DNA of 34,851 nucleotides, taken from positions 1-34,851 of IMG/VR virus record IMGVR_UViG_3300030450_002095. One strand, given 5' to 3'. The stretch comes from a virus. Below are positions 2,574 to 34,627 of the stretch, in pieces. Below the pieces are notes generated by a model. The model was not told the DNA's origin. It saw nothing but the letters and a program-made list of their open reading frames with translations, and ran no database searches. The translations under genes were made by a program, and so were the position numbers. Every line of letters starts with the position of its first letter. The stretch's first letter is position 1.

Positions 2574-3021
2574 ACCAAAACCACCACCAGTGGTTAAACC
2601 ACCACCACCAGTTGAAGAAATTTCTGCAGCAACTATTGCACCAACTATTGTTCAGGAGCAAGCTAGACAGCAAGCAGCAGGAGCGTATACAACTAGAGGT
2701 CAAAAATTAGGTGCTAGTGGTCAAGTACTAGGAGCTGATCCAAAACAATTAGCTAGTGTCGCTCAAGCAACAGGTGGATTTAAAGAACAAAAAACACTTG
2801 ATAAAATGGATTATATAAGAAATGTTGCAGACTTTTCAAGTGTTAAAGGTACTGGTATGAGTCAAGCAGTACTTATAGCATCATTAAAAAGTAAAGATTA
2901 TCAAGGTAAAGGTGCTTTAGGTAAAATGCAAAATAAAGCATATGAAAAATATATTAAAGAAGTAGAAAAAGCAAATAAAGCTAGAAAAAAACTTGGTGAG
3001 TCACCAAGTATGACAATATAA
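2551..3021 (+). CDS. Gly/Pro-rich head-associated protein
   Basis: 156 residues beginning MGGGGGSRPKPPP, then a proline-rich segment (to about residue 24), Ala/Gln-rich helix and a Lys-rich C-terminus. AAGGAG sits 8 bases before the ATG. Overlaps its upstream neighbour by 23 bases and joins the portal gene by TAATG. Proteins with this poly-Gly/Pro beginning occur next to the portal gene of T7-like marine phages and are probably small virion or connector-associated proteins; the precise role is unknown. Confidence 0.65.
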   Translation: MGGGGGSRPKPPPVVKPPPPVEEISAATIAPTIVQEQARQQAAGAYTTRGQKLGASGQVLGADPKQLASVAQATGGFKEQKTLDKMDYIRNVADFSSVKGTGMSQAVLIASLKSKDYQGKGALGKMQNKAYEKYIKEVEKANKARKKLGESPSMTI

Positions 3022-4673
3022 TGGATATATCATCTTTAATTCAAATGTATAAACGAGAAAAGTCTAGTTCTGAACGAGCTAACTTTGAAAACCTTTATGA
3101 ATCAGCAGCAGATTTTTGTAATCCTAGTGCAGATAATATTCAAAATAAACGATCTAAAGGACAACGAGATGATGTTGAAAGAATTACAGATATAGGTATA
3201 AAAGCAAGACGTATGTTTACTGCTGGAATGATGTCCCATTTATTTCCACAAGGACAAAATTGGATTCGGATTGTACCTACAGATAGAGATTTAATGTTAA
3301 ATGATAATGTTGTTCGTGCATTATCAAGCACAACTAAAAAATTTATAAGAGCTATAGAAGATTCTAACTTTTATGAAGAAATGGGTCAATGTATAGATCA
3401 TTGTGGATATATAGGCACAACAGCATTATATTGCGAGCCATCTCCAAAACGTATGCTTAACTTTCGTTCACACTATATTAATCAATTTTATTTTTGTGAA
3501 AACTATTTAGGAGAAGTAGATACAGTTATTCGTGAGTTTAAACTTACAGCAAGACAAGCAGTACAACAATTTGGAGAAGATTGTCCACAAGATATATTTG
3601 ATTTAGCACAAAACCCATCTACATCATCAAGAGAATTTTCTTTTATACATATAGTAATGCCAAGAAGTGACTTTAAATTAGGGTCTACAGATAAAAAAGA
3701 AAAACCTATCGCTTCCTATTACATATCACTTACTGGTAATAAGTTAGTTATGGAGTCAGGATTTGACGAAATGCCTTATTCTGTAGCAAGATTTTATAAA
3801 ACAAACTATGAAAAGTATGGTCGAAGTCCAGCATTAGAAGTATTTTCTACATTACCATTAATTAATCGTATGGAAGTATCTCGTATTCGTGGTGCAGAAA
3901 GAGTATCTAACCCCCCGTGGTTAGCTCCTAATGATGGAAGTGTAAGACGTATATCTAATAATTCAGGCTCAATAATATATTATAATGCAGGTAATCCATT
4001 ATCTAAACCTGAACAGTTAAGACCTATGGATAATGTAATAGTTAATGATCAAATGATACAAAAAAAAGAGCAAGAAATATTAGATGCGTTTTATGTACCA
4101 TTATTTAATCCATTAATGAATAAACAAAATATGACCGCTTTTGAATCACAAGAAAGATTAAACTTATCATTACAGTTTCTTACTCCTGCGGTTAATCGTG
4201 TTAATAAATATTTTGTAACACCAATACTAGAACGTGCTTTTGGTATTATGTTAAGAGCTAATATGTTTCCTGAATTAGAAATAGATGAATTATCATCAGC
4301 AAGCCTTGAGTTTGATTTAGTTGGTAAAGCATCTATAGCATCAAGACAAATGGAATTATTTGGTACTATGACTGCTATACAACAAATGTCACAGATAGCA
4401 CAAATTAATCCTGAAATATTTGATAATGTAAATATTGATAAGACTGCTAGATTTATTCAAGAAGTAAATATGATGCCAATAGATTTACAGTTACCTGAAG
4501 AACAAGTACAAGAAATAAGAAATGGTAGAGCTGAAGCTGCTGCTGCACAACAACAAGCAATGCAAGCACAAGCATTAAGTGATGCTTATGTGAAAACAAC
4601 TAAAGCACCTGAACAAGGTAGTGGTGCAGAATTTATTCAACAAATAGTTAATCAAGGAGCAGAAGAAAGTTAA
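3021..4673 (+). CDS. Portal (head-to-tail connector) protein, T7 gp8-like
   Basis: 550 residues, the size of T7-type connector proteins. Recognisable features are the N-terminal region with RRMFTAGMMSHLFPQ around residues 62-76, the WIRIVPTD strand, the central V-S-R-I-R-G-A-E segment, and a Gln/Ala-rich C-terminus (about residues 510-535) typical of the portal crown. It forms the dodecameric channel for DNA entry and the attachment point of the tail. Start overlaps the preceding stop (TAATG) and its own stop overlaps the next start the same way. Confidence 0.92.
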   Translation: MDISSLIQMYKREKSSSERANFENLYESAADFCNPSADNIQNKRSKGQRDDVERITDIGIKARRMFTAGMMSHLFPQGQNWIRIVPTDRDLMLNDNVVRALSSTTKKFIRAIEDSNFYEEMGQCIDHCGYIGTTALYCEPSPKRMLNFRSHYINQFYFCENYLGEVDTVIREFKLTARQAVQQFGEDCPQDIFDLAQNPSTSSREFSFIHIVMPRSDFKLGSTDKKEKPIASYYISLTGNKLVMESGFDEMPYSVARFYKTNYEKYGRSPALEVFSTLPLINRMEVSRIRGAERVSNPPWLAPNDGSVRRISNNSGSIIYYNAGNPLSKPEQLRPMDNVIVNDQMIQKKEQEILDAFYVPLFNPLMNKQNMTAFESQERLNLSLQFLTPAVNRVNKYFVTPILERAFGIMLRANMFPELEIDELSSASLEFDLVGKASIASRQMELFGTMTAIQQMSQIAQINPEIFDNVNIDKTARFIQEVNMMPIDLQLPEEQVQEIRNGRAEAAAAQQQAMQAQALSDAYVKTTKAPEQGSGAEFIQQIVNQGAEES

Positions 4674-7489: not shown

Positions 7490-8104
7490 ATGACAAAGAT
7501 TGATATATGTAATCACGCTTTGCTTAAAATTGGAGCGAGTAATATTGCTTCTCTTGACGTAGATCAAAATACAGATAATGCAACAGTACAAAGTGCAAAG
7601 CTTTGTAATATTCTTTTTGATCAAGCACTAGAAGAAGTATTAAGAACTTATCGTTGGAATAGTGCATTAAAAAGAGCAACTCTCTCTAGACTTACAGAAA
7701 CACCAGCTTTTAAATGGAAATTTAAATATCAACTTCCAAATGATTGTGTACGAGTATTAAATGTATATGATGAAGAAGAAGCATTTGATGATAGAACAGA
7801 ATATGTTGTAGAGGGTAGAACTATTCTTTGTGACTATGATCAAGTATTTTTATGTTATGTTTCTAAAGTAGAAGATGTAAATATATTAGATGCTTTTGTA
7901 ACACAATGCGTTATACAAAATTTAGCAATAAAACTTTCTGTTCCTATGCAACTTGACCAAGTTATGCAAAATAATTTAATCAAAGAATATAATGATGTGA
8001 TTCTTCCTATGGCTAGAAGTGTTGATACATTAGAAAATAAATATTGGGAAATGGAAGAAAGTGATTTTATTTTATCAAGATATAATGAAGAACCAATAAT
8101 CTAA
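7490..8104 (+). CDS. Tail tubular protein A / head-tail adaptor, T7 gp11-like
   Basis: 204 residues. The N-terminus (ICNHALLKIGA), the 'LRTYRWNSALKRATL' segment near 58-72 and 'KYQLPNDCVRVLNVY' near 86-100 are characteristic of T7-type gp11 adaptors, which form a ring beneath the portal. Length equals the family norm (about 200). Joined to tail tubular protein B by TAATG. Confidence 0.92.
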   Translation: MTKIDICNHALLKIGASNIASLDVDQNTDNATVQSAKLCNILFDQALEEVLRTYRWNSALKRATLSRLTETPAFKWKFKYQLPNDCVRVLNVYDEEEAFDDRTEYVVEGRTILCDYDQVFLCYVSKVEDVNILDAFVTQCVIQNLAIKLSVPMQLDQVMQNNLIKEYNDVILPMARSVDTLENKYWEMEESDFILSRYNEEPII

Positions 8105-25715: not shown

Positions 25716-25874
25716 ATGTCTATGTATCGTATTGTTCACAAAGAGTCAGGTAAAGAAGCAACAGTTGAAGTAAAAGGTTTTGATAGATCAGAAATGATAA
25801 GACAGGCGAGTGAGCAAATCGGTATAGAGATAAGTCCCACCGAAGTGGGACATATACGCATACTACCTCTTTAG
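25716..25874 (+). CDS. 52-residue hypothetical protein at the end of the late operon
   Basis: AAAGGAG lies right upstream (25707-25713), a strong Shine-Dalgarno, followed by MSMYRIVHKESGKEATVEV and ending GHIRILPL. A compact alpha/beta protein is likely. The 3' part is antisense to a terminator-like hairpin on the other strand (25834-25851), and the last 12 bases overlap the minus-strand peptide ORF tail to tail. Function unknown. Confidence 0.6.
   Translation: MSMYRIVHKESGKEATVEVKGFDRSEMIRQASEQIGIEISPTEVGHIRILPL
25834..25851 (-). terminator. UUCG-tetraloop hairpin ending the riboswitch transcript
   Basis: Read on the minus strand: GTCCCAC, loop TTCG, GTGGGAC, then TTATCTCTAT. A perfect 7-bp stem with the very stable C(UUCG)G loop, starting 12 bases past the peptide stop at 25863. 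The T-tract is imperfect, so termination may be partial. On the plus strand the loop is CGAA and no T-run follows, so it fits the minus-strand transcript best. Confidence 0.6.
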
Positions 25875-25919
25875 GATTTTCTTGTATGCTACTCCTCGAT
25901 AATAAAGGATAACTTCCAT
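25863..25919 (-). CDS. 18-residue 'downstream peptide' with YRGV-x-Y motif
   Basis: Encodes M-E-V-I-L-Y-Y-R-G-V-A-Y-K-K-I-L-K-R. A strong GGAGG Shine-Dalgarno (25930-25926) lies 6 bases before the ATG. It follows the glutamine aptamer at once, as in the Downstream-peptide RNA class, whose members are followed by short ORFs. The YRGV-x-Y core is like that of small cyanobacterial DUF4278 proteins. Function of such peptides is not settled. The ORF is too short to be called by size alone; the riboswitch and ribosome site make it credible. Confidence 0.75.
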   Translation of the reverse strand: MEVILYYRGVAYKKILKR

Positions 25920-33310: not shown

Positions 33311-33493
33311 TCATTCTCCTAATTTTATAATTTTATTTACTATTAACAAATCAATTTGTCTAAATTGAAACCCTTTTAAGCAATAATTATTATATAAATT
33401 ATCATTTGATTTTTCTAATTTTTTTAGTTGTTCAATGGTTTTAGCTTTCTTGACTCTTTCAATCATTGCTTGATAATTTTCTTTGTAATTCAT
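33311..33493 (-). CDS. Small helical hypothetical protein downstream of ribozyme A
   Basis: 60 residues: NYKENYQAMIERVKKAKTIE, a coil-prone helix, then hydrophobic end (IDLLIVNKIIKLG). AAAGGAG 7 bases before the ATG. Its mRNA 5' end is expected to be created by ribozyme A cleavage, giving a leader of only about 29 bases. Function unknown. Confidence 0.55.
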   Translation of the reverse strand: MNYKENYQAMIERVKKAKTIEQLKKLEKSNDNLYNNYCLKGFQFRQIDLLIVNKIIKLGE

Positions 33494-33511
33494 TTTAGTT
33501 TCTCCTTTTTA

Positions 33512-33569
33512 GTTTATCTTAAGACACCCCGAAGGGTGTTTCGGATTTTCAATCCTCATCAGTTAAGAT
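33512..33569 (-). repeat. 58-bp direct repeat, copy A (partner 33729-33786)
   Basis: 54 of 58 positions are identical to the copy at 33729-33786. The four differences are two pairs in the ribozyme stem III (A-U to G-C and C-G to A-U on the minus strand), each keeping the pairing. The downstream ribosome-site context (AGATAAAC... AGGAGAAAC... AAAATG) is also similar, so a gene cassette was probably duplicated with its ribozyme. Confidence 0.95.
33516..33569 (-). ncRNA. Hammerhead ribozyme A (type I)
   Basis: Minus strand. Stem I: ATCTTAA (33569-33563) with TTAAGAT (33522-33516). Core CTGATGA (33562-33556). Stem II: GGATT/AATCC with loop GAA (33555-33543). Core GAA (33542-33540). Stem III: ACACCC/GGGTGT with UUCG loop (33539-33524). 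Cleavage-site C at 33523, self-cleavage expected 3' of it. All invariant hammerhead residues are present, including the A15.1-U16.1 pair. The stop codon of the 48-residue gene lies inside stem I. Confidence 0.93.
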
Positions 33570-33709
33570 TTAATTAGTTTAGGTTTAGATACTGTAAAAC
33601 TCACTATCATAGCCCCTTTGTCTTCATTAAGGTATTTTGCTATTGCTTTTTTAGGTGAGCTTGCTTCGACTTCATAAACGTCTTTTACGACTATTCTATA
33701 TGTTTTCAT
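33563..33709 (-). CDS. 48-residue hypothetical protein between two ribozymes
   Basis: KTYRIVVKDVYEVEASSPKK then A-I-A-K-Y-L-N-E-D and a beta C-terminus; compact alpha/beta look with no family recognised. GGAG lies 8 bases upstream. The TAA is the end of the ribozyme A stem I strand, and the upstream leader begins at the ribozyme B cleavage site. After both cuts the mRNA would be about 217 nt with ribozyme halves at its ends. Confidence 0.6.
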   Translation of the reverse strand: MKTYRIVVKDVYEVEASSPKKAIAKYLNEDKGAMIVSFTVSKPKLIKS

Positions 33710-33728
33710 TTTCGTTTCTCCTATTTTT

Positions 33729-33786
33729 GTTTATCTTAAGACGCACCGAAGTGCGTTTCGGATTTTCAATCCTCATCAGTTAAGAT
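33729..33786 (-). repeat. 58-bp direct repeat, copy B (partner 33512-33569)
   Basis: Second copy of the ribozyme-bearing repeat, 217 bases from copy A. Same core, stem I and stem II; only stem III differs by compensated pairs. Confidence 0.95.
33733..33786 (-). ncRNA. Hammerhead ribozyme B (type I)
   Basis: Minus strand. Stem I: ATCTTAA (33786-33780) with TTAAGAT (33739-33733). Core CTGATGA (33779-33773). Stem II: GGATT/AATCC (33772-33760). Core GAA (33759-33757). Stem III: ACGCAC/GTGCGT with UUCG loop (33756-33741). Cleavage-site C at 33740. Complete consensus. The TAA of the 191-residue gene lies in stem I (33782-33780), so ribosomes finishing that gene would invade the ribozyme. Confidence 0.93.
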
Positions 33787-34355
33787 GTATAATATCTCTC
33801 ATCCATTTTAGGATATTTTTCGGTTAATTTTTGATAAGTCAAGGCTTCGGGTAAATCTTTAGTTTGCTTTTCTAATTTCTTTTGAAGCTCTTTTATTTCG
33901 TTGATTGTATCTTCAATTTTATTTAACGTGTAACCAGTTCGAAGAAATAACGCTTTTTTTCTTTGTTCGTTGCGTTCCTTTGAAGCACATAAACACCATT
34001 GATTGTTATGTTTGATTTGTTCAATATCAATAATCGGACATTTCTCACCATTACCGATTCGTAAATGGTTTAACTCAACATCATAACCATATTCTTTTAA
34101 TATGCTTGTTTTAACTACTAGATAAGTTGAACTATAATTATCAGTTATATAAACCATTACTTTTTTATATTTTGGTTTATAGTATTCTTTTTGTAATAAT
34201 AAATGTTCTTTTAATTTATCTATATGTCTTTTAGTTAGTTTCTTTGTGTCGTAATCTTTTAAAAATGATACGACTATTTCCGCTAACTCATTTTGATTTT
34301 TTTCTTCCTCATAATTTAATTTTGTTATTTCTTTAATTGTCATTAATCTTCTCAT
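33780..34355 (-). CDS. 191-residue hypothetical early protein between ribozymes C and B
   Basis: The ATG at 34355 was chosen because GAGG lies 8 bases upstream. The frame is open to an ATG at 34388, but that lies inside the ribozyme C core. Lys/Glu-rich helical N-terminus, a central beta region (KVMVYITDNYSSTYLVV), Q-W-C-L-C-A-S-K-E-R, and a C-terminal coiled coil (TINEIKELQKKLEKQTKD). No catalytic motif recognised. Flanked by self-cleaving ribozymes, it would be released as a separate mRNA. Confidence 0.6.
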   Translation of the reverse strand: MRRLMTIKEITKLNYEEEKNQNELAEIVVSFLKDYDTKKLTKRHIDKLKEHLLLQKEYYKPKYKKVMVYITDNYSSTYLVVKTSILKEYGYDVELNHLRIGNGEKCPIIDIEQIKHNNQWCLCASKERNEQRKKALFLRTGYTLNKIEDTINEIKELQKKLEKQTKDLPEALTYQKLTEKYPKMDERYYTS

Positions 34356-34380
34356 TTGTTTATCCTCGTTTAAATTAACT

Positions 34381-34432
34381 GATCTCATCAGGCAACTAAT
34401 TAAGTTACGACGCCTTTTCAGGCGTTTCGATC
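34381..34432 (-). ncRNA. Hammerhead ribozyme C (type II, permuted)
   Basis: Minus strand order: GATC (34432-34429), core GAA (34428-34426), stem III ACGCC/GGCGT with loop TGAAAA (34425-34410), cleavage-site C at 34409, stem I GTAAC/GTTGC with one G-U pair and loop TTAATTA (34408-34392), core CTGATGA (34391-34385), GATC (34384-34381). Stem II is GATC with GATC, open-ended, and may extend by AAAT/ATTT across an internal loop. All core residues are present. It starts directly after the stop of the 64-residue gene. Confidence 0.85.
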
Positions 34433-34627
34433 TTATTTGAGTAATTCTCTTAATTCGTATTCAACTTCTTCAATAATGTCCATATCGTAACCGATCGTAT
34501 ATAATGAACTTATTAAATCATCATAATCGTATTCAGGATCGGTATTATAAAGATTAGCGTATTTATCTAATTCTAATCTTAATGCTTCTACACTGAATTT
34601 ATTTCTATGTTCGTCTGTACTTCTCAT
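34433..34627 (-). CDS. 64-residue acidic protein, first gene of the early operon
   Basis: Mostly acidic (ALRLELDKYANLYNTDPEYD, then EEVEYELRELLK). GGAAGG about 9 bases before the ATG. The TAA (34435-34433) abuts ribozyme C. As the first early gene with its own ribozyme-bounded 3' end, it may be highly expressed; similar first genes in phages often act on the host. No family recognised. Confidence 0.6.
   Translation of the reverse strand: MRSTDEHRNKFSVEALRLELDKYANLYNTDPEYDYDDLISSLYTIGYDMDIIEEVEYELRELLK

Follow-up and report, generated by a model that had tools for sequence, protein, structure and literature searches.

Can a phage transcript be divided into single-gene messages by ribozymes that lie at its own gene junctions? 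The question is raised by an IMG/VR virus record of 34,851 bases (31.7% GC), analyzed here over its whole length and referred to as the window. Three hammerhead ribozymes (A, B and C) had been predicted in it, each between two early genes and oriented with the transcript.

Genome context

A near-identical contig (L123) spans the two ends of the window with few bases between them, and the record is thus nearly a whole genome, circularly permuted. No cultured phage matched the window at the nucleotide level (megablast); a head-tail connector encoded at 3021-4673 (+) is ~30% identical to those of pelagiphages, e.g., HTVC010P. Among the products encoded on the minus strand at 26-34.6 kb are a DnaB-like helicase, a replication initiator, a Dam methyltransferase and an exonuclease, and the genes associated with the ribozymes are on the same strand as, and upstream of, the initiator and helicase genes. 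This gene order makes the ‘early’ timing of the ribozyme-associated genes plausible and suggests that they are co-transcribed across the junctions. A glutamine riboswitch (RF01739; 25935-25987, minus strand; 50 bits, cut-off 35) has a TTGACA-like promoter upstream and is followed by a ribosome-binding site, an ORF of 18 amino acids (25863-25919, minus strand; MEVILYYRGVAYKKILKR) and then a terminator-like hairpin. The same arrangement occurs in the related contigs L254, L256 and L257, and the riboswitch may hint at a cyanobacterial host.

Structure and detection of the three ribozymes

A descriptor scan of both strands found exactly three hammerheads in the whole window, all on the minus strand. 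Applied to 300 order-2 Markov windows, the loose descriptor gave 24 hits, or 0.08 per window; three elements within 0.9 kb on one strand are thus far beyond chance. Ribozyme A, a type II hammerhead, occupies 34378..34434 (stem to stem, 34381-34432) and reads GAUC-GAA-ACGCC UGAAAA GGCGU-C17-GUAACU UAAUU AGUUGC-CUGAUGA-GAUC. B and C are type I hammerheads, at 33731..33787 (stem to stem, 33733-33786) and 33514..33570 (33516-33569), respectively. B reads AUCUUAA-CUGAUGA-GGAUU GAA AAUCC-GAA-ACGCAC UUCG GUGCGU-C17-UUAAGAU, and C has the same sequence except in stem III (ACACCC UUCG GGGUGU). Stems I and II are thus common to B and C, with an ordinary 5-bp hairpin as helix II, while the stem III pairs are CGCAC/GUGCG in B and CACCC/GGGUG in C, i.e., every change is compensated. 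As DNA, the two are near-identical 54-bp repeats that flank one gene.

The core of the hammerhead class (CUGANGA, GAA, A15.1-U16.1 and H17 inside three helices) is present in A, B and C, and the pairing stems, positions and cuts after C17 (34409 in A, 33740 in B, 33523 in C) are exactly as the original prediction had them. Cleavage after C17 is established chemistry for the class. Taken as sequence evidence, these features and the model scores below confirm A, B and C as genuine hammerheads, and all three are very probably catalytically active.

The prediction had proposed a covariance search with the Rfam hammerhead models. With Rfam release 15, no hammerhead reached the gathering threshold in the window, and at E values up to 10 over 1.85 kb the sole hammerhead match was RAGATH-1-hammerhead (RF03152) on C, at 29.5 bits against a gathering threshold of 56.3. 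Hammerhead_1 (RF00163), whose topology and core B and C share, left both unmatched even at E up to 10. The RAGATH-1 family resembles the window elements in its core and in the start of stem I (UCUUA/UAAGA); however, this type carries a pseudoknot in place of helix II (PMC11300833), where B and C have a hairpin. Because Rfam misses A, B and C, apart from the weak RAGATH-1 match on C, homologs were collected by pattern. Covariance models built from these relatives alone, with the window sequences left out, do match all three: A scored 61.7 bits (E 1.5e-13) with model R3, while B (62.8 bits, E 4.9e-12) and C (64.8 bits, E 1.7e-12) were found by model R2.

A further Rfam family, freshwater-2, weakly resembles positions 33491-33539 (minus strand; 20.9 bits, cut-off 49.9), which comprise the 3' half of C and its ribosome-binding site; this family might contain the 3' halves of such ribozymes.

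In predictions of secondary structure, with tertiary contacts left out of the energies, the hammerhead fold of C is the minimum free energy (MFE) fold. B differs slightly in fold and energy (MFE -15.4 vs. -14.6 kcal/mol for the hammerhead), and the MFE fold of A (-17.3 kcal/mol) hides the core in a CUGAU/AUCAG hairpin, with the hammerhead fold at -14.3. Fast hammerhead cleavage at low Mg2+ needs a tertiary contact between helices I and II. Type I relatives have a conserved flank A and a UNAN(N) loop, and B and C differ from them there. A pseudoknot between loop I and the tail was considered for type II relatives and dropped, as loop-tail complementarity showed no excess over the control.

Gene junctions

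A, B and C separate the first four minus-strand genes. The operon runs leftward from a small ORF of 64 amino acids (34433..34627; no Pfam match), followed by ORFs of 191 (33780..34355), 48 (33563..33709) and 60 amino acids (33311..33493). The placement originally predicted, at successive junctions between two same-strand ORFs and in the orientation of the transcript, was borne out for all three ribozymes. For the ORF downstream of A, however, the start given in the ORF list (34388) corresponds to the AUG within the ribozyme core; the true start is the AUG at 34355, behind GAGGA.

Stop codons lie close against or inside the ribozymes. The UAA of the 64-aa gene (34435-34433) adjoins stem II of A, while those of the 191-aa gene (33782-33780) and the 48-aa gene (33565-33563) fall within stem I of B and C, respectively, where they form the innermost bases of the 5' strand. 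From the predicted cut to the next AUG, leaders measure 53 nt (A), 30 nt (B) and 29 nt (C), and they contain the ribosome-binding sites GAGGA, AGGAG and AAGGAG, respectively. This geometry is consistent with processing into single-gene messages.

Promoter-like matches were no more numerous than in shuffled sequences, and no terminator-like site was found on the minus strand; a terminator or promoter role was rejected as unsupported on that strand. The plus-strand complements of B and C (33746-33761 and 33529-33544) resemble intrinsic terminators, a likeness that is probably incidental, though it could influence antisense transcription.

Related hammerheads in uncultivated phages

Relatives were sampled from viral contigs with three core-letter patterns, none of which requires full pairing: a type I pattern with GTCTTA, a type I pattern without the stem I constraint, and a type II pattern (at least 120 matches each). 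All stems pair in 88% of the 121 type I matches listed, compared to 1.6% with partners swapped, and in 85% of the 122 type II matches listed, compared to 1.1%. This partner-swap test on letter-chosen matches replaced a covariation count on descriptor-chosen sequences, which was dropped as circular because the descriptor itself demands pairing. Across the relatives, unpaired letters of the core show little or no variation, and 84 of 110 listed matches to the pattern without the stem I constraint are complete type I elements.

The relatives are arranged much as in the window. Among the matches listed, 179 type I hits fall in 100 loci; all 53 multi-ribozyme loci have their elements on one strand, with a median spacing of 620 nt, or about one gene. 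In a set of 212 type I elements from the matches listed, an upstream stop lies at -15..+14 of the core in 204/210, and the start codon follows the cut at a median of 25 nt (IQR 22-29). A UAA directly before the core (180/212) is inflated, since the first pattern required a UUA immediately following the cut; among the matches listed without that constraint it drops to 21/84, while stop placement is kept (-15..+14 in 62/75). In that same listed sample the start lies at a median of 26 nt and 26/26 multi-element loci are on one strand. Listed type II matches have a stop at -20..+5 of the GAA in 81% of cases vs. 20% at random places, mostly 4-12 nt before the GAA, with a start codon at a median of 28 nt after the core; their multi-element loci are also on one strand (17/17). 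Fixed spacing of stop, ribozyme and start over hundreds of elements suggests operon processing rather than relics. The window mixes types I and II, and such joint loci are rare among the relatives listed (a type II hit in 2/100 type I loci; a type I hit in 2/80 type II loci).

The largest array described here, 14 type I hammerheads that all share a strand, is on a 39.8-kb IMG/VR phage contig (L105 / G005); the first 17 kb of transcription order contain 12 of the 14. This contig has genes for a DNA polymerase and a phage-type RNA polymerase, and one hammerhead is directly upstream of the RNA polymerase gene. A 5.8-kb contig labeled as a MAG of Aliivibrio sp. (L126) has eight strong and one weak type I hammerheads between small ORFs, again on one strand; it is probably phage sequence in the bin. 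Single relatives occur in the cultured phages Methylophilales phage MEP301, Pelagibacter phage HTVC019P and Flavobacterium phage elemoC. At locus 7962-8069 of elemoC (L133), the hammerhead is overlain by a hypothetical CDS annotated on the minus strand (phanotate42), which is probably a miscall.

Some relatives score above or just under the cut-off of Hammerhead_1 (RF00163). At gathering thresholds, Rfam recovered just 2 hammerheads in nine loci that hold ~40 type I elements, and none in 14 type II loci.

Distribution among close relatives

The original prediction looked to related phages for ribozymes conserved at the same junctions; their presence is patchy. L123/L254 (99% identical) has A, B and C. 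The ribozymes are absent from L255 (98% in the helicase), L256 (78%), L257 (67%) and L258 (65%), while in L259 (60%) this region has a pair of type I elements, each with a UAA inside stem I, between unrelated genes. The helix changes between the L259 pair are compensated, and these elements share with the window the flank UUARGAUAAAC before the ribosome-binding site. L124 encodes an 85% identical homolog of the 191-aa ORF without the ribozyme, with other genes in place of the 48-aa and 60-aa ORFs; the small genes that the ribozymes bound in the window are thus replaced in L124/L255. The elements are dispensable for the lineage, being absent from L124/L255 and L256-L258, and their absence where small genes are replaced suggests that they come and go with small-gene cassettes.

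Alternative explanations

The position of the stop codons invites a reading in which cleavage is gated by translation: a terminating ribosome would cover the 5' strand and the core, so that only RNA untranslated at that moment would cut, and separation would be tied to translation of the upstream gene. Stem I includes the UAA in B, in C and in both L259 ribozymes, and in most relatives listed the stop reaches into, or directly borders, the 5' half of the element. Such overlap may, however, reflect compact genomes alone; in the sample without the stem I constraint the stop falls at -9..+1 in 41/75 of the matches listed. We consider such gating possible, though rather unlikely. The near-identical 54-bp repeats around one gene, together with the replacement of intervening genes in an otherwise retained region of L124 and L259, could instead point to DNA whose main role, or means of spread, is the exchange of small genes by recombination, with cleavage secondary or selfish. 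Recombination at the DNA level would need neither the RNA pairing nor the single strand nor the stop-to-start geometry that the relatives keep, and the stem III differences between B and C are fully compensated, all of which makes a primary role as cassette boundaries improbable.

The 48-aa gene is bracketed by B and C, and two ribozymes around one gene could excise a fragment whose 5'-OH and cyclic-phosphate ends are then joined to form a circle. Circular or spliced RNA of this kind was sought from other arrays by Perreault et al. and none was found (PMC3088659), and we regard it as very improbable here. That the elements are not ribozymes but hairpins of an ordinary kind between genes, such as terminators, 3'-end protectors or RNase III sites, seems hardly credible: stable hairpins do occur at the junctions, and B and C are terminator-like on the plus strand, but the minus strand offers no such site and the unpaired core letters scarcely vary among relatives.

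Discussion

We conclude from sequence and structure that A, B and C are likely to be self-cleaving intercistronic punctuation of a polycistronic phage transcript. The direct basis of this reading lies in the sequences and their structures, in a family of homologs, and in the strand bias and stop-to-start geometry; cleavage and end chemistry at A, B and C are those expected of the hammerhead class. As RNA polymerase passes a junction, the nascent RNA would fold and cut itself after C17. The upstream message would then end in the ribozyme hairpins and a 2',3'-cyclic phosphate, and the downstream message would open with a 5'-OH, followed by a short leader of 29, 30 or 53 nt bearing its ribosome-binding site. 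A likely use is that small early genes in exchangeable cassettes would be expressed as separate, insulated messages, with host RNases not needed. The benefit to the phage, whether stability, insulation or timing, is the least certain part of this proposal.

Phage T7 provides the best functional analogy, as its polycistronic early RNA is cut to single-gene messages by RNase III at intercistronic structures; in T7 a host enzyme cuts, whereas the window transcript would cleave itself. In synthetic biology, RiboJ-type insulators also place a hammerhead upstream of a ribosome-binding site, where it trims the leader and insulates expression, but they are engineered and follow promoters, while the window elements lie between natural genes.

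The serial use of hammerheads between phage genes had been predicted to be undescribed, and this is mistaken. Clustered hammerheads that flank prophage genes were reported with the proposal that they process RNA into operon- or single-gene mRNAs, and tandem arrays were shown to cleave (Perreault et al. 2011, PMC3088659). The same paper describes, for haloviruses HF1/HF2, an early-region hammerhead variant with its cut site within three nucleotides of a mapped 5' end (PMC3088659). A 2017 review (PMC6155905) repeats the clustered arrangement and calls the role of bacterial and phage hammerheads an open question. The prophage clusters resemble the window in that several hammerhead types flank single genes or short blocks, with the same processing hypothesis, and A, B and C, located close together and flanking single genes of a virus, belong with them. 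Compared with the main text of Perreault et al. (2011), which makes no mention of ribosomes, translation or stop codons, the window differs in having UAA in stem I and its relatives in their fixed stop-ribozyme-start spacing. The kind of ribozyme is already known, as judged from a literature search over open-licence papers; the wider pattern in relatives, the stop-ribozyme-start geometry and the gap in Rfam are what merit specialist attention.

A broader and distinctly tentative view is that self-cleaving punctuation of one gene after another may form a large system in phages, most of it still unannotated, where ribozyme and stop overlap, termination would gate cleavage and the resulting messages would be insulated and independent of host nucleases. 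Curated Rfam models miss nearly all of the relatives scanned, which constitutes an annotation gap; as the related viruses show, hammerheads between phage genes are far commoner than RNA databases register, and their link to gene ends is tighter. The presence of relatives in the cultured phages MEP301, HTVC019P and elemoC makes both cleavage and fitness directly testable.
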